Notes: generated from the letters alone by a model not told the origin. A stretch of DNA of 36,251 nucleotides from Patescibacteria group bacterium (GCA_022563755.1 JADFMT010000007.1:1-36251); one strand, 5' to 3'; shown: positions 5,815 to 28,942, numbered from the stretch's first letter. Numbers and translations are program-made.

Positions 5815-7305
5815 TTAATTTTTCAGCAGCTCTGCGATATCCAAATCGAACTCAGCTTCCTTTATTGATCCAACCTCGGCAGGCAAAAACTCGCCTGTAA
5901 CAGCAAGTTCGCAAGCATCTCGAAGGTCTTCCGCCCCAAAAAAAGGCTGACCGTCCTTGTCCAATAGAACTGGTTGACCAGGCAACTCTTTAATCGAGAG
6001 TCGTGCAGCAGAGTCTGCATCTTCTGTACCGCCTTCCATCGCTACACCAATCACCGGAGTATGGTAATTGCCAAAATATCGCAACAAAGATACAAGTACA
6101 CCAGGAAGAGCAGCAGCTTTACCCGCAGCTGCAACGACGACATCCGCAGATGTATCTTCAGCATATTTGAGTAATACTCCTGGGTTTCTGTGACAGCTAA
6201 TGATGTGTAGAGACGGTCTCACCAACCCTTGTTTTTTTGATGCTTCAAGATAGACAAGGGTGGGTTTGGCATACTTAAGATCTGACCTACTGCCCAACAC
6301 AACATCAACACGCACAGGAGTTGGCTGAACATCAATGCCCATCTGATCGCGCTGAAATACCTCCAGCTTCTGATCGGTTAATCGCCAAAAGATGTAGCGA
6401 TAAAGCCTGGTTGTTTGCTCAAGCACCTCGGCTGGAACCTTCAAACAGTGAACATAGGAAACGTCTTCAGGATTTGCAGGATCACGTTCGTGAATACCAT
6501 GTTCCATTCCCCAACCACGCATAAATTGCTTATCAAGGGATTGTGGAGTTCGGCCTTCAAGTATCGCTCGTTCCCAGTCTTTCACATCCCAGAAACGACT
6601 TGAATCGGGAGTTATTACCTCGTCCCCCAAGCAGAGACGGCCCTCGCTATTAAAGCCCCACTCAAGCTTGAAGTCAGCGATTACAATTCCATGACTCAAT
6701 GCTATTGCATGAGCAAGCGCATATACCTGCAATGAAAGATTCTCGGGATCCTTTCCATACTTTAAAGCAATGCTCTTTGCGTCAACGTGTTCGTCATGCC
6801 CAACCTCTGCTTTTGTTGTTGGAGTAAAGATGGCACAAGGAAGTCGTGAACCATCCCGCAACCCTTCTGGCAACCGATGACCACATACCTCACCCGTTTT
6901 TTTATATGCTACAAGGCCGCTCCCTGTAAGATATCCTCGTACAATTGCTTCAAACGGAAGCATGTCGAGTCTCTTTACCACCAGGGCCCGTTTTTGCAGT
7001 TTGGGATTGCCTTGAAGAGCTTTGGGTAGATATGCATCAATGCCAGAACCATAGGCAACAATATCCTGCATAGAAGGATCTAGTACGATTTTGCGCCAAA
7101 ACACATTCATTGCCGTAAGGATCGCTCCTTTGTTTTGAACCACAGCGGGAAGCACGAAATCAAAGATACTGATTCGATCACTTGCAACCGGCAAGAGGTT
7201 ATCTGGATGATCTGGCAGATCATAGATGTCCCGTACTTTTCCTTCAGAAAAAAAATTCAATCCTGAGACAAATTCACGACTGACGGCTAGGGGAATCTGA
7301 ACCAT
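5815..7305 (-). CDS. purCE: PurC-PurE fusion: SAICAR synthetase plus AIR carboxylase/mutase
   Basis: A 496-aa two-domain enzyme. Residues 1 to about 320 are SAICAR synthetase (GKVRDIYDLP, ASDRISIFDF, VRGYLTGSG, IADFKLEWG, DEVITPDSSRFW), the ATP-dependent joining of CAIR and aspartate. Residues about 333-475 are PurE (VVLGSRSDL, SCHRNP, AAGKAAALPG, TPVIGVAMEGG), which makes CAIR from AIR. The product of the second domain is the substrate of the first, so fusion could channel it, as in animal PAICS, though the domain order and PurE type must be compared separately. There is a strong AAGGAGG 7 nt before the ATG, a leader with a hairpin, its own promoter and a terminator, so it is a single-gene unit. 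Confidence 0.93.
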   Translation of the reverse strand: MVQIPLAVSREFVSGLNFFSEGKVRDIYDLPDHPDNLLPVASDRISIFDFVLPAVVQNKGAILTAMNVFWRKIVLDPSMQDIVAYGSGIDAYLPKALQGNPKLQKRALVVKRLDMLPFEAIVRGYLTGSGLVAYKKTGEVCGHRLPEGLRDGSRLPCAIFTPTTKAEVGHDEHVDAKSIALKYGKDPENLSLQVYALAHAIALSHGIVIADFKLEWGFNSEGRLCLGDEVITPDSSRFWDVKDWERAILEGRTPQSLDKQFMRGWGMEHGIHERDPANPEDVSYVHCLKVPAEVLEQTTRLYRYIFWRLTDQKLEVFQRDQMGIDVQPTPVRVDVVLGSRSDLKYAKPTLVYLEASKKQGLVRPSLHIISCHRNPGVLLKYAEDTSADVVVAAAGKAAALPGVLVSLLRYFGNYHTPVIGVAMEGGTEDADSAARLSIKELPGQPVLLDKDGQPFFGAEDLRDACELAVTGEFLPAEVGSIKEAEFDLDIAELLKN

Positions 7306-7421: not shown

Positions 7422-9827
7422 TTACTGAACCGTCATGATCTGACCATTTGAGGCCGTAACCGTTTCTGTAACATCGCTGCCCGATGCAACTCCTGTTACG
7501 GCTATGGATGGCGCTGGAGCAATTCCCCAGCTAAAAGTATCACCCGTGGAAACAGCTGGTGCAACATTGCATTTCAGTGCAAGAATCTTTATAGCTCCTT
7601 TTGGAATAACCAGCCCGTTATCAAGCGTGAATGAGACATCACTCCCTGATATAACGGTAACCGTTGGATTAACAACGTTTGAACCTGTATTAAGTGCAGT
7701 AGTGCCGTCAAACAACTGACATGTGTTTAATCCACTTGCTGCTGTCGCAAATGTGTATTTCAATGGAATGAGCGAGAATCGTACGTCCTCACCGGATGCG
7801 GTTACATCAAACTGGTAGTTGGCAAAGGTAAACATCTGAGCGCCTGCAACAATGTTTTGTGCTGTAGGGAAAGAGGCAACGCTGATTGCCAAAGCCGCCA
7901 CTTTGACTGTCATCTTGTTCATACTGAAGCTGCCTTGTGAGATGGTAATGGTATTTCCGGTTGTCTGACCCGTAATCGTTGTCCAATCAGCTGAAGGATT
8001 GCTTGAAAGAGTATACTCGGTGCCATTCCCGATGTTCGCAGCAACCTTACCTTTTAGGGTGTAGACGCTCTTTCCTACCGGGAAGGTTACGGTATCGGTA
8101 AAGGTAATCGAGGTGCCTGCTCCGGTTGCATCAATCGGTCCCGCTACAACAGAACCATTTGGATCAACCATGATTATATTGGTAAGCAAACCACTACCCG
8201 AACCGGATGTGGTAGCAATCGTGAATTTCATACTCGACACTGAGATTGCTTCACCCTTGAGATCAATCTCAAATCCACCCAGTACCTGGTTTGGAACGTT
8301 GACTGCAATGTTTTGTGCAGGAACCTGATTTGATTTGCTAATAACTACTGTTGTGTCGGATGGTGTATTAAATGATGACTCTGTTGAGGTTGCTTTGTTA
8401 TTGGCAGCATCAATCGATTCAACAATAAAGTGATACGTAGTATCTGCTGTTAAATCGGTGAGTGTTATAGAATGGCTTGTTACCAATGATACTGTGCTTG
8501 AGGCTGACACATCCACTGGATTTTCTAAATCAATAGGAGTGGTCGTTGAGAAGTGAACTTTGCTGGTTGCTGGCTCACTGGTTGCCCACGTAATGGTTGC
8601 GGACGTTAAGCTCGCAACAGTAGCAGAGACTACAGAAATGACGGGTGCAGTGGTATCCGATCCACCATCATTGTCTCTAAAGAAATCTCCTAGCTTCTTA
8701 CGAATGCCTAGCGCCTTAAGCAGACCGGGTGGAATATTGCCCGATTTGCCCGCTCCATCTGTAAGCAGTTCTTTGATTCGCTCAAATCCATGCTTCTCTA
8801 TTTCTAAAGCATCAATAGCCGTATCTTTTCTGAATTCTGCCCTATTTTTATCCGCTTCGATTTGAAGAAGTCTTTGACGAATTTGTTTCTCAGCCTCTAT
8901 ATCCCCTAATCTAACAGCATCGCGTAATTCTCTATGAAGCTTTCTTTTTTCAGCAAAGAATTCTTTTTTTGCATTGTTAAATTCTTGTTTTGCAATCTTT
9001 TTTTGGAGATGGAAATTACCTACAATCTCGGTAGGAGCGGATGAACTAACTAGATTCGTTAAAGATGCAGCCGAGGAGAATACCGAATCGTCCTCAAAAA
9101 GAAAGGTAACAATAATTTTGTTAGCCTCTTCCTCAACATTAATTGACGCAAGATCAACTCTGTCTAAAGCCCTGACAAGTGCGGGCAATCTATCCGCAAA
9201 CCTTCTTGCCAACCTATTTCTACGCTCAGCTAGACGTTCGAGACGTTTTAAGGTTTTTTCAAAATCCTTAAATTGGTCTTTTCCTTGGTGAGATATTTTC
9301 TTAAAAAGATCTTCAGCTTTTTCTAGATTTTTTTCAGCTCGAAAAATAGTGCCTATAATAGTTGCCCCATCAAACGTCCCGGGCTCTAGGTTTTCTCCAG
9401 TAGTTGTCGCGGTAGTAGTCGCAGTAGTGGTCGCGGTAGTAGTAGCAGCATTCCCTGCATCAGTTTGAGTTTCAATTTCAACTTCTTCTAACCTTCTTTC
9501 TGCTAATTTCAATACAAAATCAATTCTATTTTCATCACCAACAATGAAAAAGCTTTGAAATTGTTCTGATAAAAGCTTCAAAGGATAAAGAGTATCTGAG
9601 GGCAAGGCGGCTTGAGCAGAGTTTACAAAACCACCCCCAATACTAAAAATAAGGACCACTGCTATCAAAGAGGTAACAAATCGCTTTGTGAAGAAGTAAG
9701 AACGCACAGATTTATTCTCCTCGGCCGTATTTACAAAATTCAAACGAAGAGTTTTAAGCCATTTTTGATCAGGCTCTATTTTTCTAAGCTTTTTTATTTT
9801 CTTTATAATATGAAAAAATCTAAACAT
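7422..9827 (-). CDS. DUF5667 surface protein with FnIII and adhesin-like domains
   Basis: An 801-aa protein. A cytoplasmic basic N-terminus (about 50 aa) precedes one membrane helix (about 51-70) and the DUF5667 region (ALPSDTLYPLKLLSEQ, AERRLEEVE), then a threonine-rich tandem ATTT repeat (about 127-142), a charged coiled-coil stretch, an FnIII domain (about 392-490) and two or more beta-sandwich repeats ending VTASNGQIMTVQ. It should be anchored in the membrane with most of the chain outside. The gene overlaps the end of the ECF sigma gene by 8 nt. This arrangement, and the cytoplasmic N-terminus joined to a sensor-like exterior, suggests an anti-sigma or surface-sensing role. That role is inference. 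Confidence 0.8.
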   Translation of the reverse strand: MFRFFHIIKKIKKLRKIEPDQKWLKTLRLNFVNTAEENKSVRSYFFTKRFVTSLIAVVLIFSIGGGFVNSAQAALPSDTLYPLKLLSEQFQSFFIVGDENRIDFVLKLAERRLEEVEIETQTDAGNAATTTATTTATTTATTTGENLEPGTFDGATIIGTIFRAEKNLEKAEDLFKKISHQGKDQFKDFEKTLKRLERLAERRNRLARRFADRLPALVRALDRVDLASINVEEEANKIIVTFLFEDDSVFSSAASLTNLVSSSAPTEIVGNFHLQKKIAKQEFNNAKKEFFAEKRKLHRELRDAVRLGDIEAEKQIRQRLLQIEADKNRAEFRKDTAIDALEIEKHGFERIKELLTDGAGKSGNIPPGLLKALGIRKKLGDFFRDNDGGSDTTAPVISVVSATVASLTSATITWATSEPATSKVHFSTTTPIDLENPVDVSASSTVSLVTSHSITLTDLTADTTYHFIVESIDAANNKATSTESSFNTPSDTTVVISKSNQVPAQNIAVNVPNQVLGGFEIDLKGEAISVSSMKFTIATTSGSGSGLLTNIIMVDPNGSVVAGPIDATGAGTSITFTDTVTFPVGKSVYTLKGKVAANIGNGTEYTLSSNPSADWTTITGQTTGNTITISQGSFSMNKMTVKVAALAISVASFPTAQNIVAGAQMFTFANYQFDVTASGEDVRFSLIPLKYTFATAASGLNTCQLFDGTTALNTGSNVVNPTVTVISGSDVSFTLDNGLVIPKGAIKILALKCNVAPAVSTGDTFSWGIAPAPSIAVTGVASGSDVTETVTASNGQIMTVQ

Positions 9828-10395
9828 GATCGTTAAATTGTTGTTTTAGCTTTTTAAGCGACCTATAAATAGAGACGTAGATCGCGTTGGGTTTCTTACC
9901 GGAAAGTTCTGCAATGTCTGGAATTGAGAGACCGTCCACAAATCGCCAGTGGAGAATTTCTGTTTGCTCTTTGGGTAAAATCTGAAACGCTTTAACAATC
10001 CGTTTTACCTCTACAGCATTCTCCATGCTCTCAGGAAGATACTGATCATCAACAAGGGTATCTACCATACTCTCATTGATCAAAACGGTTTTTGCGCCTC
10101 TACCTCGCCAATGATCGGCCATAACATTTCGCAAGACCCGGTAAAGAAACGCAGGATAGGATTTAATGGTCTCGCCACCCTGCACATACTGCCAGGTCTG
10201 CAGGAAGGTTTGTGAGACAAAATCCTCAGAAAGTTCCTTGGAACCCACGCGCACTAAACAAAACCGGTAGAGCTTCGGCGCACATTCATCGAAAGCCCGG
10301 ATAAAGACTTTCTCAACTTTTGTATGAATGGAAATGGCTTCGCTTTTCACGAATGGTTTTGAGATAGCGCCCCTCATAGTATTATGAACGCCCAT
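9820..10395 (-). CDS. ECF-type RNA polymerase sigma factor
   Basis: A protein of 191 aa with region 2 (FIRAFDECAPKLYRFC, SEDFVSQTFLQTW, FLYRVLRNVMADHWR) and region 4 (LPKEQTEILHWRFVDGLSIPDIAELSGKKPNAIYVSIYRS), the layout of sigma-70 family ECF factors. It should direct RNA polymerase to a small regulon, probably surface genes, given the overlapping DUF5667 gene. The frame is open upstream to a TTG at 10452 that overlaps the comEC stop (TTGA), which would suit coupled translation but add 19 low-complexity residues. No candidate start has a good Shine-Dalgarno site, so the start is uncertain; the first ATG is used. Confidence 0.85.
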   Translation of the reverse strand: MGVHNTMRGAISKPFVKSEAISIHTKVEKVFIRAFDECAPKLYRFCLVRVGSKELSEDFVSQTFLQTWQYVQGGETIKSYPAFLYRVLRNVMADHWRGRGAKTVLINESMVDTLVDDQYLPESMENAVEVKRIVKAFQILPKEQTEILHWRFVDGLSIPDIAELSGKKPNAIYVSIYRSLKKLKQQFNDHV

Positions 10396-10448
10396 ACCTA
10401 GAGAAGACGGTTCCCGTAGCCAAAATCTTACAGGATGCTTGCTCAGCG

Positions 10449-11924
10449 TCAACTATTGCGTTTTCTCAATACGAAATAAGCCAGAAGCCCATACAGGAAG
10501 AAGGCAGCGACGGCTGGAAAATGCGAGATGGTAATCTCGGAAAAGAAAGGCTTGGCAAGAATGTCGGCTACGGCGAGTTCGTATGAGGCAAAAAGATAGG
10601 TAATCCACGCAAAGGGCATGGCAAGAATGCCGCTCACCCATCCAATAACCCCTGTTAAAAATCCAAAAAGCATGGTCAGCGGCACAAAGATTAAAATCAA
10701 AAGATTCGCAGGCAAGGCAACCACAGAAAACGTGCCCATGGTATAGAGAAGAAGCGGGGTTACGGCAAGCTGTGCCGATAGTGTCGCAAGGCCGTATTCT
10801 CGGATCTGAAATTTTTTAGGCAAAAACCTTACAAATCTTTCCAGATGGGGCGAAAGGTACAAAAGCCCAAGCGTTGCTAAAAAAGAAAGTTGAAACGACA
10901 CGTCAAATCGTAAAATTTTAGGATTAGCTAAAAGCATCAAAAAACCAGCAACAAAAAGCGCGATCTTGGCCTGGTACACTCTTCCCGTAAGACCTGCAAA
11001 ATACAAAATCGCAGCCATAATAGAGGCGCGTACCACCGTAGCCGACGCACCGGTCAGGATCGCAAAAAGAAAAATGCCAACAAGACCCGCGCTGACGCTT
11101 AAAGCATACGGAAGAAAACCAGCAAAAAATCCTGCAATGGAACGTGCAACAATCGTCACATTGTAACCCGAAAGAACCACAATATGGATGACTCCAACTT
11201 TACGAAAATCCTCCAACACCTCCGGAGGCATACTGCGCTTCGCTCCCACGGTCAGCCCGCCTAAAAAAGATGCTTGTGGTTCGGGCAACGCGCGCGACAG
11301 ACTTTCAAGATATTTTCGCTTAACGGCAAAAAGCATTCGCTTAAGCCGCCAGCCCTCGCCCGATCCCGTCTTGGTAATCGCGGGAAAAACCATCTCTAAG
11401 AAAATATCGTCTTTGGCCAAATATGCGCGGTAATCAAAATCCGAGAAATTTTCAGGCTCCTTTACTACTCCCCTTATCTCGAGCGTATCTCCATAAGAAA
11501 ATTCAGGGAGGCGGCGCGTAATGAGCAAAAGTTTAACCGATGAAATGTTTTGCCACTGCCTCTCTTGCCAATTGAGCATTTCATGCGCCTGAAAAATTAG
11601 GCGCGTTGAATTTTCGCGCTCATCTGGTTCCTCGACAATCGTGCCCCGAAGAAATATGCTCTCACCCATTACATTTTTCAATTCCAAAGGAATATCTGCT
11701 CGATCCTTGGTTTCATAGCGAAGAATTCCCAAACTTAATGATAAAAGCGCAATCCCAAGAAAAAGAAAAACGGATCCTTTATATATCCGCGAAAAAACAA
11801 AAAAGAATATACTAATGATTCCAAGCAACGCCGCGAATCCCCAATCGATCGCAAAAAAAGAGCGTGCCAAAATCCCTATTCCAAATCCGGCAAGCATGAG
11901 AACAAAAATAACCCGACGAAACAT
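10449..11924 (-). CDS. comEC: ComEC/Rec2 DNA-uptake channel without nuclease domain
   Basis: A 491-aa polytopic membrane protein: two or three N-terminal helices, an OB-like soluble domain (about 75-170, IFLRGTIVEEPDERE) and the Competence domain with GGLTVGAKRSMPPEVLEDFRK, VIHIVVLSGYNVT and TGASATVVRASIMA. It should move single-stranded DNA across the membrane. Full ComEC has about 750 aa with a C-terminal MBL domain; that domain is missing here and a matching protein is encoded at 4890-5750. The start is ATG at 11924; TAAAAT lies 6 nt before it on the minus strand, so it may be leaderless and divergent from tRNA-Glu. Confidence 0.92.
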   Translation of the reverse strand: MFRRVIFVLMLAGFGIGILARSFFAIDWGFAALLGIISIFFFVFSRIYKGSVFLFLGIALLSLSLGILRYETKDRADIPLELKNVMGESIFLRGTIVEEPDERENSTRLIFQAHEMLNWQERQWQNISSVKLLLITRRLPEFSYGDTLEIRGVVKEPENFSDFDYRAYLAKDDIFLEMVFPAITKTGSGEGWRLKRMLFAVKRKYLESLSRALPEPQASFLGGLTVGAKRSMPPEVLEDFRKVGVIHIVVLSGYNVTIVARSIAGFFAGFLPYALSVSAGLVGIFLFAILTGASATVVRASIMAAILYFAGLTGRVYQAKIALFVAGFLMLLANPKILRFDVSFQLSFLATLGLLYLSPHLERFVRFLPKKFQIREYGLATLSAQLAVTPLLLYTMGTFSVVALPANLLILIFVPLTMLFGFLTGVIGWVSGILAMPFAWITYLFASYELAVADILAKPFFSEITISHFPAVAAFFLYGLLAYFVLRKRNS

Positions 11925-22514: not shown

Positions 22515-22718
22515 ATGGCGCTTTTCGATTTCTTTTTAAAAAAACAAAGTAAAGAGGGTGAGGAGACCTTCAAGTGCGTAAAATGCGGCAAGGAAAAAAA
22601 TAAATCTCAGGGTGTATTTATGCTCGAGGGATCGACCTTCTGCTGCAAGCGCTGCTGCGGGGACCAAGCCAAGGGTGAACACAAAAAGAACAACGACAAA
22701 ACATGCGAATTTTGTTGA
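22515..22718 (+). CDS. Small Cys-rich protein
   Basis: A 67-aa protein with eight cysteines: FKCVKCGKEK, then FCCKRCCGDQ, and TCEFC at the very end. The CxxC pairs suggest a zinc- or cluster-binding finger; the N-terminus MALFDFFLKKQ is typical of small conserved proteins of this group. The function is unknown. It lies 20 nt before the alternative oxidase gene and could belong to that unit. Confidence 0.7.
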   Translation: MALFDFFLKKQSKEGEETFKCVKCGKEKNKSQGVFMLEGSTFCCKRCCGDQAKGEHKKNNDKTCEFC

Positions 22719-22738
22719 GGAACGTGGTTTAACCATTC

Positions 22739-23431
22739 GTGAGAAAATTTAACTATACACGAGGAAAAGAGCTCGACCTTAGAGAGGAACAAGAGAAAAC
22801 TCTCAAAACCCCCAAACACAAAGCAAATATATTTTTGCAAGTGATGTTTCTTGTCATGGACCTCTGTTACGGAAAAAAGGGAAGCCTTTTAAAGTTTAAG
22901 GCACTCGAGATGCTAGCCCGTTATCCCTATATCGCCTGGGAAAATGCCTCGTATCATGCAATTACCGTAGCCCATTCAAGACCCGACTATCCCAAAAAAG
23001 AAACCTTTGATAAGGCGTTGCACCTCATGCGTTTAGGAAGAGATGCTCAGGACAATGAACAGCTTCATTTAATGTTGATTGAAGATATTATGAGACAAAA
23101 TCAGATCAAACAAGGATGGCTTCAGGGTTACCTCATTCCGCATATCCTATCCTTTGGATATTACTATCTCAATACAATACTCTACTGGCTGCACCCGATT
23201 TGGTCATTTGAGATGAATGCGGGTTTAGAATCGCATGCAGAATATGAATATATGCTGGCGGTTCGAGAACATCCAGAGTGGGAAGAAATCCCAGTCGAGT
23301 CAGAATATTTTCAATACTATCCAAAGCAAAAAACCCTCGCAGACCTTATGAGAAGAATTGCTCTTGATGAACGAGACCATCGCTATAGGTCTCTTGAAGA
23401 GATAGACCGATTAACTATAATCAATGACTAA
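22739..23431 (+). CDS. Alternative oxidase-like di-iron protein
   Basis: A 230-aa protein starting with GTG. It carries all six di-iron ligands of alternative oxidase in order: E57 (ALEMLARYP, like LETVAAVP), E107 and H110 (NEQLH, like NERMH), E164 (GLESHAEYEY, like LEEEAIHSYTE), E211 and H214 (DERDHR, like DEAHHR). AOX is a monotopic membrane protein that oxidises quinol and reduces O2 to water without pumping protons. The two hydrophobic membrane-binding helices are visible (about 30-43 and 131-155). Its end overlaps the next gene by 8 nt. With VKOR downstream it may be the electron sink for disulfide formation; it could also remove O2. Confidence 0.85.
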   Translation: MRKFNYTRGKELDLREEQEKTLKTPKHKANIFLQVMFLVMDLCYGKKGSLLKFKALEMLARYPYIAWENASYHAITVAHSRPDYPKKETFDKALHLMRLGRDAQDNEQLHLMLIEDIMRQNQIKQGWLQGYLIPHILSFGYYYLNTILYWLHPIWSFEMNAGLESHAEYEYMLAVREHPEWEEIPVESEYFQYYPKQKTLADLMRRIALDERDHRYRSLEEIDRLTIIND

Positions 23432-24146
23432 AGGTATACAAATTTTGCTAGCCGACCCCCTAATCATTGTCGCAATTACTGCGGGTTTTATCCTTTTGAT
23501 TACCCTTCTTGTGCTGGTAAGAAAACCGCAAAGCAGTTGGGCAAAACTCTTTTTTTTCTGGATTCTCGCACTACCCATTATTGCCGTAACGCTCTACTTA
23601 GCCGGAGGTACGATCTATAAAAATATCTCTTCAGCCACGAAAGGTCCCGTGCACTGGCATGCGGATTTTCGTATTTTTCAGTGCGGCGAGGAACTGGATT
23701 TGGTAGATCCTTCAGGCCTTTCAAACCGGGTGGGTTCACCGGTAGTGCATGAACATGGAGATAATCGTATCCATATCGAAGGCGTACTGGACAGGTTTGA
23801 GGAAGCGTCGTTGCAGGGATTTATGGAGGCAATCGGCGGCACGCTTTCGCGAGACAGATTGAACGTTCCCACGAATGAGGGACTAGCAACCATGAAAAAC
23901 GGAGATTTATGTCCGGATGGCAAAGAAGGACGCCTTGAGGTATTTTTGTGGCAGACGACGAATGACGTCGCCCGGCAACAAAAATTACGCGACTATATAA
24001 ACTATGCAATCTCGCCTGAGACGCTGGTGCCGCCGGGTGACTGCATTATTTTTGAGTTTGGAAGCATTAACAAAGAGAAAACCGATTCTATGTGCGAGCA
24101 ATATGAGGTCGCGGAAGCAAGAGGTGATCTAATCATTGTTCGCTAA
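23424..24146 (+). CDS. Membrane-anchored His/Cys-rich extracytoplasmic protein
   Basis: A 240-aa protein: two N-terminal membrane helices (about 10-31 and 38-60), then an outside domain with HWHADF, VVHEHGDNRIHIEG and four cysteines (FQCGEE, DLCPDG, PGDCII, SMCEQ). The clustered His residues look like a metal site, and the Cys residues could form two disulfides, so it may be a substrate of the VKOR pathway in this operon. I do not recognise a named family. It overlaps the AOX gene by 8 nt and lies 5 nt before the CcdA-like gene. Confidence 0.7.
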   Translation: MTKGIQILLADPLIIVAITAGFILLITLLVLVRKPQSSWAKLFFFWILALPIIAVTLYLAGGTIYKNISSATKGPVHWHADFRIFQCGEELDLVDPSGLSNRVGSPVVHEHGDNRIHIEGVLDRFEEASLQGFMEAIGGTLSRDRLNVPTNEGLATMKNGDLCPDGKEGRLEVFLWQTTNDVARQQKLRDYINYAISPETLVPPGDCIIFEFGSINKEKTDSMCEQYEVAEARGDLIIVR

Positions 24147-24151
24147 ACACC

Positions 24152-24859
24152 ATGCTTGAAGCACAACTACCCATCCTCCTTACGGTAATGGCCACGGCCG
24201 CCATCGACGCGATCAATCCCTGCGCGATTGGAGTCTTGATCCTCATGATCTCAGTCATCCTCTCCTCCGGCGGCAGCACGAAACGTCTCTTGTGGCTCGG
24301 TTTTCTGTATACGCTTTCGGTTTTTACGGTCTATCTTTTAGCCGGCCTCGGTCTTGCCTATTTCTTTACCACCATCCCCTTGATTGTTACCGAATATATT
24401 TCGATTGCAGTCGGTGTCATAATTATCGCGGCAGGGCTTTTTGAGATAAAAGACTACTTCTGGTACGGTCGCTGGTTCTCGCTCGGAATTCCGGCGAGGT
24501 TTGCAAAAAAAATCCACCTGTATTCCAAACGCGTCACGGTGCCGGGCGTTATCTTTCTGGGCGCTTTTGTCTCGGCGGTTGAGCTACCCTGCACCGGCGC
24601 GCCCTATCTTGCCATCATCACCATCCTCTCGCAGTATTTTGACTTCACCGCTTTTCTCCTTCTGGTCATTTATAACCTCATTTTTGTATCACCTCTTATC
24701 ATTATATTAATTCTGGTTGCCGCAGGCATACAGATTCATCATATTAAAATCTGGAAGCAGGGTGCTCGCGGGTATATGCGCTTATTCATTGGACTGCTTT
24801 TGGTTTCTTTAGGATGGCTTTTGATGCTGATTGCGAATGGAACGATCAACTTCGGCTAA
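24152..24859 (+). CDS. CcdA/DsbD-like thiol-disulfide transporter
   Basis: A 235-aa protein with about six membrane helices. Two conserved in-membrane cysteines stand in INPCAIG (C24) and ELPCTGAP (C147), the hallmark of CcdA and the DsbD beta domain. It carries reducing electrons from cytoplasmic thioredoxin to proteins outside. It may balance the oxidising VKOR in this gene set by keeping chosen Cys pairs reduced or by isomerising wrong disulfides. No haem-binding gene is nearby, so cytochrome c maturation is not indicated. Confidence 0.88.
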   Translation: MLEAQLPILLTVMATAAIDAINPCAIGVLILMISVILSSGGSTKRLLWLGFLYTLSVFTVYLLAGLGLAYFFTTIPLIVTEYISIAVGVIIIAAGLFEIKDYFWYGRWFSLGIPARFAKKIHLYSKRVTVPGVIFLGAFVSAVELPCTGAPYLAIITILSQYFDFTAFLLLVIYNLIFVSPLIIILILVAAGIQIHHIKIWKQGARGYMRLFIGLLLVSLGWLLMLIANGTINFG

Positions 24860-24893
24860 ATCAATCCGCCTGTTAAGGCAAATGATCTAGGGT

Positions 24894-24899
24894 TATAAT
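24894..24899 (+). promoter_or_regulatory. -10 box before the ATP-cone gene
   Basis: TATAAT ending 12 nt before the ATG at 24912. It suggests an internal, nearly leaderless transcript for the ATP-cone-VKOR part. No clear -35 box. Confidence 0.4.
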
Positions 24900-24911
24900 G
24901 ATATTACTGTT

Positions 24912-25187
24912 ATGACACACCCGCATATTGTAAAACGAAAAGAGCACGAGGAACCGTATGATAATCATAAAGTATATGCGTCCTGTTATGCGGCGTGCTT
25001 AAATACGAGTCTTTCAAAAAAGGAAGCGGAGACGATTTGCGCCGAGGTGATGACAGACCTGGATCGCTGGATAGAAGGGAAAGACATGGTCCGGTCTGAA
25101 GAAATTTTCAAAGAGATCACCCAATCCATATACAGGCGCAATAAAGAAGCGGCGTTTATGTATAAAACCCATCTCGATGTATCATGA
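24912..25187 (+). CDS. Stand-alone ATP-cone domain protein
   Basis: A 91-aa protein that fits the ATP-cone fold alone: HIVKRKEHEEPYDNHKVYASCYAACL, then EAETICAEVMTDLDRW, EIFKEITQSIYRRNKEAAFMY. ATP-cones sense ATP/dATP in ribonucleotide reductases and in NrdR. NrdR's N-terminal zinc ribbon is absent, and no nrd gene is present. Its stop overlaps the VKOR start (ATGA). It may regulate this redox cluster by nucleotide level; that is inference. Confidence 0.75.
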   Translation: MTHPHIVKRKEHEEPYDNHKVYASCYAACLNTSLSKKEAETICAEVMTDLDRWIEGKDMVRSEEIFKEITQSIYRRNKEAAFMYKTHLDVS

Positions 25188-25603
25188 CCCCACATGCACT
25201 TTTATTTACGCTTGCCGCGATTGGAATTAGCGAGACTGCCTATCTCATTCGCGAAAGAATCGCCCATAAAGATCCTGTCTGCCCGATCGGAACAGGATGC
25301 AATGTGGTACTTGGCAGCAAATACAATAAAATTTTCGGCATTATTCATAACGATATCCTGGGGCTTGCCTCATACATCGCGCTTGCTTTTCTGAGTGCTT
25401 TTTTGGTTATTGGAATTGGACCGCTCACTCTATGGGTGATCTTGGTTAAAACACTTATTTTTATTGGAATCGCAATGTCCTTCTTTTTGATTTACATCCA
25501 GTGGCGAATTATTAAAGCGTGGTGCTTTTGGTGCCTGATGGCAGTATTTATCGTCTTTAGTATGGAAATTATTGTTTTAACCAGTAATCTTATTTTGGTA
25601 TGA
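25184..25603 (+). CDS. Vitamin K epoxide reductase (VKOR) family, disulfide-forming
   Basis: A 139-aa membrane protein with four helices. It has the VKOR loop Cys pair (C33 and C39 in VCPIGTGCN) and the active-site CxxC (C114, C117 in WCFWC). Bacterial VKOR oxidises a DsbA-like partner and passes electrons to quinone; it thus does the work of DsbB. No fused thioredoxin domain is present, so the partner must be separate; it was not found in this window. Overlaps the ATP-cone and DoxX-like genes by 4 nt each (translational coupling). Confidence 0.9.
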   Translation: MTPHALLFTLAAIGISETAYLIRERIAHKDPVCPIGTGCNVVLGSKYNKIFGIIHNDILGLASYIALAFLSAFLVIGIGPLTLWVILVKTLIFIGIAMSFFLIYIQWRIIKAWCFWCLMAVFIVFSMEIIVLTSNLILV

Positions 25604-25971
25604 AAACGTATGGATTTCACATTTTACGCGTTGGCATGGCAATCACGTTTTTGTGGATTGGAGTACTGATTTTCCAATCTCCTGAAGCATGGGCTGGATT
25701 TATTCAGCCTTGGGCTCGCGATCTTCTACCGATCTCCCCCAGAACCGCATTGATTGCAACCGCCATCTTTGACCTCACGATCGGGGGATTTCTTTTGATT
25801 GATGTATTTACCTGGCTTGCCTCACTTCTGGGCGCTATACATTTAGCAAGCATCCTTGCCGTATCAGGAATTGATGCGATTACGGTTCGGGATATCGGAC
25901 TTTTGAGTGCCATGATCTTTTTATCCGTAACATCCTGGCCACATAGATTTTCTTTTAAAAAATTATTATAA
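25600..25971 (+). CDS. DoxX-like membrane protein
   Basis: A 123-aa protein with four membrane helices and an IRDIGLL-like VRDIGLLSA segment in the last part, as in the DoxX/DUF6041-type families. DoxX proteins take part in quinone- or thiosulfate-linked redox chemistry and detoxification; the exact role is unknown. Its ATG overlaps the VKOR stop (ATGA), which fits a shared redox task. Confidence 0.7.
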   Translation: MKTYGFHILRVGMAITFLWIGVLIFQSPEAWAGFIQPWARDLLPISPRTALIATAIFDLTIGGFLLIDVFTWLASLLGAIHLASILAVSGIDAITVRDIGLLSAMIFLSVTSWPHRFSFKKLL

Positions 25972-25972
25972 T
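25967..25972 (+). promoter_or_regulatory. -10 box before the DUF5667-cupredoxin gene
   Basis: TATAAT, 8 nt before the ATG at 25981, overlapping the stop codon region of the DoxX-like gene. It predicts a leaderless transcript in addition to read-through. Confidence 0.5.
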
Positions 25973-25980
25973 ACACGTAT

Positions 25981-27207
25981 ATGAAACACACCATTATTAT
26001 TTACTCACTCGCACTTTTTTTATTGATCTCATCAGCTGGATGGGCAGGAGCGCAGGATAAAGGGGTCGCATTGCCGGATCCAGGCTTATTGCCAGACTCC
26101 CCTTTTTATTTTCTAAAAAGAATTTTTGAGGAAGCTGGTACGCTTTTCGTTTTTAGCCGAGAAGCTCGCTTGGATCGCTTTATTGCTTTATCAGAAAGAC
26201 GACTTGCTGAGGTGCGCGCACTTTTTGACAAAGAAAAAACCGAGCGCGCGCTAACAGCGCTTGATCGCTACGGACGCGCACGCACACGTGTCGAGAACCA
26301 ATTTAGAAGAGTAGAAGAACGCGGAGACGACACAAAAGATTTAGCAAAAAAGGTAGAAGAATCTATAGCAAAACATGTTGTTGTTTTGGAAGAGGTTCTT
26401 AAACGAGCGCCGGAAGCCGCAACCGAGGGACTTAGACGTGCAATCGAATCCTCCACAAAAGTAATTACAAAAATGCGAGAACCGTCGGTTCGGCTGCTTA
26501 GTACTCCTCGAGCCGGAAGAACCAATCGGAAACTTAACGTAACGTGGCGCGTAAGCAGCCCATTACGCAAAACAATCAACCACACGGCAGTCCACTTCGG
26601 CTATACGTCCCGACCCGGAGAACTAGGGCTTAATATTGCGCCGCCCAACGCTGGCTATCCAGGATTAACGCCAACACACGCAAAGAAGCGATCCGAAATT
26701 CCAGCAACGTTTTCGGACAAAATCGTACCTGATAAGGTCGGAACACTATATCTTCGCGCTCATGCAATTATTGATGGAGGGCATTATTGGGGTGACGAGA
26801 CATCCATAGAAATTAAAGGGGGTTTCTTGTTCTCCCCGCCCGAGACACCAAGACCGAAACCTAAACCTACACCTCCCCCCATTTCGATACCCGGGCCAGT
26901 CCTTCCCGTACCTCCGCCTGTTCTCTTAAAAACATTTATCATTGAAGCCGATGATGCAGGATTTTATCCAAACGGTAATCTAACCGTAAATAAGGGCGAT
27001 ACGGTAAAAATTACGTTCAAAGTGCGCTCGACCGGTGTCTATTTCGGCGGCCTGGACTTTCGCGGAGCTCCTTATTTCACCTCGCCCAAAGTTTTACCCG
27101 GAGGAGAAACTACGGTTGAGTTCACCGCAGATCAAAGCTTTACCTATTCCTCCTATTGGCCCGCAAGTTCGATTCTCAAATCAAGCGGAACTATAACCGT
27201 CGAGTAG
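25981..27207 (+). CDS. DUF5667 protein with a cupredoxin-like C-terminal domain
   Basis: A 408-aa secreted protein. A signal peptide (about 1-25) precedes DUF5667 (LLPDSPFYFLKRIFEE, LDRFIALSERRLAEV; about 30-165, helical), a beta domain (TWRVSSP...THTAVHFGY-like, about 175-280), a proline-rich linker (about 285-312) and a cupredoxin-like domain (FIIEADDAGFYPNGNLTVNKGDTVKI, about 315-408). The copper ligands expected in a plastocyanin-type site (two His, Cys, Met) are absent, so it is structural or lost its metal. It closes the redox gene set and shares DUF5667 with the 801-aa surface protein. Confidence 0.75.
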   Translation: MKHTIIIYSLALFLLISSAGWAGAQDKGVALPDPGLLPDSPFYFLKRIFEEAGTLFVFSREARLDRFIALSERRLAEVRALFDKEKTERALTALDRYGRARTRVENQFRRVEERGDDTKDLAKKVEESIAKHVVVLEEVLKRAPEAATEGLRRAIESSTKVITKMREPSVRLLSTPRAGRTNRKLNVTWRVSSPLRKTINHTAVHFGYTSRPGELGLNIAPPNAGYPGLTPTHAKKRSEIPATFSDKIVPDKVGTLYLRAHAIIDGGHYWGDETSIEIKGGFLFSPPETPRPKPKPTPPPISIPGPVLPVPPPVLLKTFIIEADDAGFYPNGNLTVNKGDTVKITFKVRSTGVYFGGLDFRGAPYFTSPKVLPGGETTVEFTADQSFTYSSYWPASSILKSSGTITVE

Positions 27208-27309
27208 CGGCTTCTCTTATCCACACTTGCTCTCTATTCTCTTCTCTGCTACGCTCTCTGGTTAGAGCATCTTTTCAATCAAACACCACCGCAACGAAAG
27301 GAAATGGTT

Positions 27310-28179
27310 ATGACAAGCGTCTCTCAAAGCGCTGTTCACCACCTGATTGATCCGGTTGATCCTCACGAGTTCGCTATCGCCGTAAGAAAGCTACGGTCAT
27401 TCTTTGATAAGCGAGGATTCGTGGAAGGGCATTTCCAACATCGTTTGGAGCCATTGGGCATTCTTGCTGCCTGCGAAAATCCTTTTAACATTGCTACTTT
27501 TAACTATGCAGGCCAAGTCTGGCCCCTTCCGCAAACATCCCAAATGTGGATGGAGTACGAACTCCTTACAAACCCCGATGTGCCGGGATATTTTTGTATC
27601 AGCACAAGCTTCCGCCAAGAACCAGACCCAGTCGAAGGACGACACAACCTTATATTTCCGATGTTCGAATTTGAGACACACGGGGATATGGAAACGCTTG
27701 CCGAGCTCGAAAAAGATCTTCTTGAACACCTCGGCTTCGGCTCCACCAGCAATTTCCCGGAAATTCTCTATGATGATGCGATGCTTCGTTACGATGCCAA
27801 TGAAATTGGCGACGCAGAAGAAAAAGCGCTATACGCCACCTTTGGTGACGCCTTGCTCCTTACAAGATTTCCGAATCACACCTGGCCCTTCTGGAACATG
27901 AAACGAGACGGTAAGCACGCAAAGAAAATCGACGTAATCCTTTTCGGGGTAGAAACGATCGGATCTTCTGAACGAAGTTCCGATCCAGAAGAGATGCGCC
28001 ATTACTTCTATACTATTAGTGATGGCGCCTATGCAAAGACGCTCTTCGGCAAATTTACTCGTGAACGAGTGGAACGAGAGCTCGATTTTTTCCTCAGCCT
28101 TCCTTTTATTACTCGCTGCGGCGGCGGGATGGGTATGACACGGATGATTCGGGCGCTTAAACTAGCGGGCCAAATTTAA
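27310..28179 (+). CDS. AsnRS/AspRS-like class II catalytic core (asparagine synthetase-like)
   Basis: A 289-aa single-domain class II synthetase core: motif 2 [16 protein letters not shown] and motif 3 [13 protein letters not shown], nearest to aspartyl- and asparaginyl-tRNA synthetases. The N-terminal anticodon-binding OB domain is missing. Archaeal proteins with this form (AS-AR type) make asparagine from aspartate with ATP. That is one likely role; an AMP-transfer role on another target is the other. It is much shorter than a true AsnRS (about 430 aa). Two Met codons are near (27304, 27310); AAAGGA spacing favours 27310. A hairpin GCTCT/AGAGC lies in the leader (27251-27266). Confidence 0.8.
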
Positions 28180-28240: not shown

Positions 28241-28942
28241 ATGGTGGATGAAGAACGACGGCATCAAAAAGGTGCGAAATACTTGCGCGATGCGGTCTAC
28301 GGCGCAAATGACGGCATTGTAACCACCTTTGCAGTTGTTGCAGGTGTGGTGGGCGCCTCTCTTTCGCCCGTTATCGTTATTTTGCTGGGAGTTGCAAGTC
28401 TACTTGCAGACGGTTTTTCCATGGCTGCCTCCAGTTTTTTAGCTACGCGCTCAGCCAAAGATGTGTTTGAAAGAGAGCGCGAGGTAGAGAAATGGGAAGT
28501 TGCTCACCATCCAAAATTAGAAGAGGCCGAAATCCGCGAGATCCTTGTTAAAAAAGGATATGGAGGAAATGATTTAAAGGAAATGATTACACTTATTACA
28601 AAAAATGAGGAATTTTGGATTGACTTTATGATGTATGAAGAGCTAGGGTTTTTACCGATTGAGGATGGCAGGGCATTTCGGAGTGCGATCGTCACCTTTT
28701 TTGCTTTTATTGGCGCGGGTTTTTTGCCCATCGTCCCCTACCTATTCATAACAGGAGACGCAAGTGCGTTTTTGTGGTCAGCGCTCTTTGCGATCCTTGC
28801 ATTTTTTATTGTTGGCGCGCTTCGTGCTTTCTTTACCGCAAAATCCTGGTTCTGGTCCGGCTTTGAGATGCTTTTGGTTGGCGGCTTTGCCGCCTCCATT
28901 GCCTACTTGGCAGGCTTTTTGATTAAAATTCTCATCACTTAA
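28241..28942 (+). CDS. VIT1/CCC1-family iron/manganese transporter
   Basis: A 233-aa protein with the family's N-terminal [24 protein letters not shown] helix and [19 protein letters not shown], a charged cytoplasmic metal-binding helical domain (ERERE...EEAEIREIL, about 80-140) and three further C-terminal helices. It should export or store Fe2+/Mn2+ by proton exchange. Metal handling may be linked to the di-iron oxidase upstream, but the AsnRS-like gene and a terminator separate them. Confidence 0.9.

Follow-up and report, generated by a model that had tools for sequence, protein, structure and literature searches.

Electrons of DsbA-type proteins reach quinone through VKOR, and alternative oxidase (AOX) passes quinol electrons to O2; the two would share one membrane pool wherever quinone is present. 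Here, we analyze a block of redox genes encoding both enzymes in a 36,251-nucleotide (nt) stretch of DNA, the whole of which we call the window, from a Patescibacteria group bacterium (GCA_022563755.1 JADFMT010000007.1:1-36251). In Actinomyces oris, VKOR is tied to the quinone pool and to NADH dehydrogenase, and a ubiE mutant recovers when menaquinone-4 is supplied (PMC5478893); a second paper likewise links this electron transfer in A. oris to menaquinone and NADH dehydrogenase (PMC11208910). The view that Patescibacteria ancestrally lacked electron transport chains comes from a survey that covered heme-copper and bd oxidases only and that AOX would therefore have escaped (PMC7507113).

We find that the window encodes a true but divergent AOX, apparently of foreign origin, placed within genes for thiol redox chemistry. 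The explanation we favor, and to which we give about even weight, is that this AOX, without pumping protons, serves as a general outlet to O2 for a small pool of borrowed quinone, which VKOR, an NDH-2-like NADH dehydrogenase, or both would supply with electrons.

Identity and fold of the alternative oxidase

The protein encoded at 22739-23431 is an AOX by family, ligands, and modelled fold, and its catalysis would presumably follow. It scores 29.2 bits against Pfam AOX (PF01786; cut-off 22.7) and is the only AOX in the source genome, which comprises 781 kb in 47 contigs and is labelled G000 in our comparisons. The six di-iron ligands named in a preliminary description of this DNA (E57, E107, H110, E164, E211, and H214) are correct, and all six are invariant in an alignment of 25 sequences. 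N106, A167, Y171, and D210 are likewise invariant in that alignment, and we take them to be the equivalents of N161, A216, Y220, and D265 of trypanosome AOX, in which the counterparts of N106, Y171, and D210 belong to the catalytic network.

Searches of PDB sequences with phmmer and hmmsearch gave no match for AOX or for the CcdA-like protein encoded farther along the block, so the AOX assignment was settled by fold comparison. The AlphaFold2 model (pLDDT 91.3) was compared with the PDB using Foldseek, and the top 14 matches are all Trypanosoma brucei AOX (TM about 0.6-0.66); the 13 matches at E<=0.001 are each T. brucei AOX. COQ7 is a far weaker fold match (E 0.18), and ferritin and other di-iron proteins do no better. 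At the quinol-pocket positions, whose roles we assume to be those of the trypanosome enzyme, L56, A167, and Y171 are kept, a His replaces the Glu two residues after E164, and a Lys (K52) occupies the position five residues before the first Glu, as in 23 of the 25 aligned sequences; the canonical pocket Arg at this position is, we presume, R118 of trypanosome AOX.

An apparently foreign gene in a mosaic of two units

The named genes of the redox block all lie on the + strand, at 22515-25971; the last line below gives the gene that follows them.

22515..22718, + strand: 67-amino-acid Cys-rich (zinc-ribbon-like; "ZnC") protein, the block's first gene, conserved in relatives
22739..23431, + strand: divergent AOX, 230 amino acids, GTG start (Pfam PF01786, ligands, AlphaFold2 model, Foldseek)
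23424..24146, + strand: two-transmembrane protein with an extracytoplasmic His/Cys-rich domain (the exported protein), with relatives in G423, G511, and G037
24152..24859, + strand: thiol carrier resembling CcdA and the transmembrane part of DsbD, with C24 and C147 (cassette relatives, both Cys invariant)
24912..25187, + strand: stand-alone ATP-cone protein, 91 amino acids (Pfam PF03477)
25184..25603, + strand: VKOR with both cysteine pairs and without a fused thioredoxin domain (Pfam VKOR)
25600..25971, + strand: DoxX-like membrane protein (Pfam DoxX)
25981..27207, + strand: DUF5667 secreted protein (Pfam DUF5667, 58.3 bits), probably outside the redox block

Relatives of the window genome contain two units from which this arrangement can be read. 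Genomes of the same family (G002 and G003) have no AOX and carry the order ZnC - VKOR-thioredoxin fusion - CcdA - VKOR - DoxX, while G019 holds two VKOR-DoxX pairs. The closest VKOR-DoxX orthologues (51-62% identity) thus lie in genomes without AOX, which makes VKOR-DoxX an old unit. The second unit is a cassette of ZnC, exported protein, CcdA, and ATP-cone in G423, G511, and G037, which belong to other families, with a cation P-type ATPase nearby and MgtE in one of them; neither AOX nor VKOR was detected within 11-12 kb around each cassette. From its gene content, this cassette looks like one for thiol or metal handling. By gene order, the block is best described as a mosaic, in which ZnC - [AOX] - exported protein - CcdA - ATP-cone is joined to VKOR - DoxX. 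Paceibacteria cassette loci were seen at L102 3495-5682, L103 3836-6474, and L104 5269-9915. One same-family locus (G002, L052 1003-4835) encodes a DsbA-like protein, VKOR, a Cys-rich protein, a VKOR-thioredoxin fusion, a CcdA-like protein, VKOR, and DoxX, that is, three VKORs in one small genome.

AOX is the sole gene of the block without a conserved neighborhood and is foreign to both units. In the tree, it groups with non-Patescibacteria sequences, from Dehalococcoidia and other phyla, apart from the other Paceibacteria AOX, across a long separating branch with support of 95/100; the AOX of G100 and G130 form a third, canonical group. Because of this tree position and the missing neighborhood, we consider the gene acquired and inserted, apparently by horizontal gain from another phylum; its own branch is long (1.28). 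The exported protein of the window lacks the ~50-residue signal-peptide end of its relatives, precisely at the AOX junction where the two genes overlap by 8 nt, and this shortening fits an insertion; no remnant of the lost end is readable in the exported protein's frame within the AOX gene. We also considered that AOX, the exported protein, and CcdA moved in as one unit, and rejected this since the exported-CcdA-ATP-cone cassette is intact in genomes lacking AOX.

Relatives of this AOX were sought in a genome contig collection, where a two-row alignment found AOX loci and a single-sequence scan found none. The 21 loci recovered come from Bacteroidales (many of them sediment metagenome-assembled genomes), Dehalococcoidia, Myxococcales, Desulfobacteraceae, Geobacteraceae, Verrucomicrobia, and others, and their gene contexts vary; tblastn with the window's neighbor genes against these 21 loci found none present and no VKOR at E<=1e-3. 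The closest relative, L008 from Dehalococcoidia (41-43% identity), lies directly downstream of a gene for a NarI/4Fe-4S/CCG membrane protein of a quinone-linked type. Loci L008-L028 make up a divergent AOX clade with Lys for the canonical Arg, found in lineages usually thought anaerobic and often in sediment metagenome-assembled genomes. In the window's own class, AOX is present in 8 of 384 genomes, in unrelated contexts. Two Paceibacteria genomes (L027 and L028; seen in G017 and L028) carry AOX between uvrC and ddl, and in L028 a peptidoglycan-binding-like protein is encoded between uvrC and AOX.

Proteins and layout of the thiol-redox block

The preliminary description had also named a VKOR with both Cys pairs, a DoxX-like protein, and an ATP-cone protein, and each scores over its Pfam cut-off. 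VKOR (76.5 bits; cut-off 27.5) aligns with Synechococcus VKOR (3KP9/4NV6), its C33/C39, C114/C117, and S45 are invariant in the alignment, and it is 51-58% identical to the orthologues of G002, G003, and G019. DoxX (25.9; cut-off 23.6) adjoins VKOR in these same genomes, twice in G019, with 57-62% identity. The ATP-cone protein (PF03477, 29.3; cut-off 25.8) is 43-51% identical to its counterparts in the cassettes of G423, G511, and G037.

The CcdA-like protein keeps its C24 and C147 invariant in seven sequences, as a thiol carrier would, and its family assignment is weak: among curated families, SfLAP scores 33.2, below the cut-off of 35, and DsbD matches at E 9e-4, while a single-sequence model (pLDDT 54) is too poor for a fold search. 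Its identity is 62-69% with the CcdA encoded in the cassettes of G423, G511, and G037 and 38-40% with the CcdA of same-family genomes. The His/Cys-rich exported protein is confirmed as to its domain (HWHADF...C, HEH..., and 4 Cys), to which two N-terminal hydrophobic segments can be added, and its relatives in the three cassettes share 38-47% identity. The 67-amino-acid Cys-rich protein occupies the same position in G002 and G003 (54-65%) and recurs in the cassettes (47-60%), and no Pfam family scores above cut-off for it.

The block differs in extent from the interval first proposed for it (22739-27207), as it starts at 22515, with the Cys-rich protein, and the stretch at 25981-27207 encodes the unrelated DUF5667 protein, a kind not found adjoining VKOR-DoxX in the relatives compared. 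The single strand and the overlaps of 4-8 nt stand as described: AOX shares 8 nt with the exported-protein gene, and VKOR shares 4 nt with the ATP-cone gene before it and 4 nt with DoxX after it. Because a 52-nt gap containing a TATAAT separates CcdA from ATP-cone, a single transcript over the block is not certain. Elsewhere in the window, a further DUF5667 protein lies beside a sigma-70-like factor (7422-10452), and an AIR carboxylase domain is fused to SAICAR synthetase (5815-7305). Downstream of the block are a class II (D/K/N) aminoacyl-tRNA-synthetase-like protein of only 291 amino acids, possibly an asparagine-synthetase-like enzyme (27304-28179), and a VIT-family protein of the iron/manganese transporter type (28241-28942).

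Partners elsewhere in the genome

Two checks had been suggested, one for a DsbA-like partner and one for quinone synthesis, and they came out differently. The genome, checked family by family, encodes one DsbA-like protein (PF13462, 133.6 bits, CPFC motif) at G000:C40, whose gene stands in a row with DUF3105 and TrxR/AhpF-like reductase genes (L090 2197-4529), beside a GAPDH-like gene. No UbiA was found by a family search that detected it in 14 of 14 control genomes; other quinone-route genes were not searched for. The cell thus appears to lack the known UbiA/MenA step of quinone synthesis, and any quinone is probably scavenged.

The missing UbiA also bears on a different account of the oxidase, namely that it is a di-iron enzyme with a non-quinol substrate, for example in metal or thiol handling with the exported His/Cys-rich protein. 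Its Lys for the canonical Arg, its weak Pfam score, the exported protein next to it, and the P-type ATPase and MgtE in the relatives' cassettes are all compatible with such a role. Nevertheless, the model matches the AOX fold at E 1e-4 and COQ7, ferritin, and other di-iron proteins only at E about 0.2 or more, and N106, Y171, and D210, presumed members of the trypanosome catalytic network, are invariant; we hold this account to be very unlikely.

A second possible source of electrons is found among three Pyr_redox_2 proteins of the genome: one of them aligns with NDH-2 of known structure along almost all of its length (YjlD, 170 bits, the best PDB match; C. thermarum NDH-2, 131 bits). NDH-2 and AOX are a classic pair, and AOX could serve simply to dispose of O2 and NADH, with electrons running from NADH through the NDH-2-like protein and quinone to O2 and the place beside VKOR being a chance of insertion. 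The full-length alignment speaks for this, as does the fact that most AOX relatives stand alone in unrelated contexts, many in usually anaerobic lineages. Against it, the NDH-2-like gene is located away from AOX, next to sufBC-type genes on a different contig, and persists in a genome lacking AOX, and AOX itself came to sit inside the redox block, where it runs 8 nt into the gene that follows. We regard an NADH/O2 route independent of VKOR as rather unlikely.

A proposed drain for a borrowed quinone pool

We return to the favored reading of AOX as a general drain. The AOX gene, gained horizontally, would have entered an extracytoplasmic thiol-redox block that was already in place, landing after its first gene and before its second. 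The enzyme would oxidize quinol at the membrane and reduce O2 to water without pumping protons, using quinone from the host or the surroundings. Electrons would enter the pool from VKOR, which would reoxidize the DsbA-like protein, and also from the NDH-2-like NADH dehydrogenase, while reducing power would move the other way, to thiols outside the cytoplasm, through the CcdA-like protein. The benefit to the cell would be the removal of O2 and the re-oxidation of the pool.

Several points weigh against this reading. VKOR and AOX both need quinone to work as proposed, and its source is inferred; with a Lys (K52) where AOX canonically has Arg, the enzyme may have a changed quinol pocket. An NDH-2-like gene is present in G001 too, a genome with neither AOX nor VKOR, and so is not AOX-specific. 

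AOX and VKOR adjoin in 2 of the 10 AOX-bearing genomes of the phylum (G000 and G100), a count that speaks against a conserved AOX-VKOR module and bears on the closed chain from protein thiols to O2 that had been proposed for the window. Its parts (AOX, VKOR, and a DsbA-like protein) are present, and the conserved AOX-VKOR neighborhood set beforehand as a check is mostly lacking, being absent from all 21 loci of the contig collection as well. In the strict form of such a chain, AOX would mainly serve VKOR, and electrons would flow heme-free from protein thiols through the DsbA-like protein, VKOR, quinone, and AOX to O2. The 1.75 kb between the AOX end and the VKOR start, on the same strand, is consistent with this, as is the known coupling of A. 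oris VKOR with quinone and with NADH dehydrogenase (PMC5478893). So is G100, where an independently acquired, canonical AOX (81.6 bits), of a type different from the window's, stands head-to-head with VKOR (116.8 bits). Since G000 was chosen because of the pairing, only G100 counts as independent; the chance that AOX and VKOR are immediate neighbors in one or more of the six other genomes with both is ~1.3% (~900 genes, random placement), a rough estimate made after the fact and drawn from a single genome. This adjacency is suggestive of an AOX-VKOR link, no more, and the family and class of G100 comprise six genomes in our set, so the pairing there is not extendable.

Against a dedicated chain stand the genomes in which AOX is not beside VKOR (8 of 10): three have no VKOR (G017, G452, and G673), one has a VKOR match only below cut-off (G433), and four have the two on different contigs (G631, G674, G723, and G130, the last a relative of G100). 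Same-family VKOR-DoxX, moreover, occurs without AOX. We consider a dedicated disulfide respiration unlikely, and we think it similarly doubtful that the full picture holds, in which a heme-free minimal chain runs on scavenged quinone, a foreign AOX has entered a thiol-redox operon, and G100 arrived independently at an AOX-VKOR pairing of its own. A literature search returned no paper joining AOX with VKOR or DsbB and none describing AOX in Patescibacteria. Finding a heme-free quinol oxidase, gained on a separate occasion, in cells that seemingly cannot make quinone raises the questions of whether quinone is borrowed from hosts and whether O2 is a sink for disulfide formation or NADH in such cells.

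Comparison with known systems

Set beside described systems, the locus shows the following likenesses and differences:

(i) Like trypanosome AOX (3VV9/3VVA), the window protein has the six ligands in motifs LE, NE..H, E, and DE..H, the Asn/Tyr/Asp network, and the AOX fold. It differs in its ~18% identity, in its Lys for the canonical Arg, and in being a short, 230-amino-acid form common to a little-described clade (Bacteroidales, Dehalococcoidia, Desulfobacteraceae, Myxococcales, and others).

(ii) As in the MdbA-VKOR-menaquinone system of A. oris, there is a VKOR with both Cys pairs and a separate DsbA-like protein, with quinone the expected acceptor (PMC5478893), whereas the window genome yields no UbiA-type gene and its candidate terminal oxidase is AOX.

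(iii) The CcdA-like protein resembles the CcdA/DsbD reducing pathway in being a small multi-helix membrane protein with a pair of invariant Cys, placed in the motifs NPC and LPCTGAPY, but it matches the curated families weakly and its model reaches only pLDDT 54.

(iv) The DoxX-like protein scores over the Pfam cut-off for the family that includes the mycobacterial membrane-associated oxidoreductase complex. It differs in that, in Paceibacteria, the DoxX gene is paired with VKOR.

(v) The pieces are thus of known kinds, and what is new is their combination in a Patescibacterium, together with a clade of short AOX in usually anaerobic lineages.

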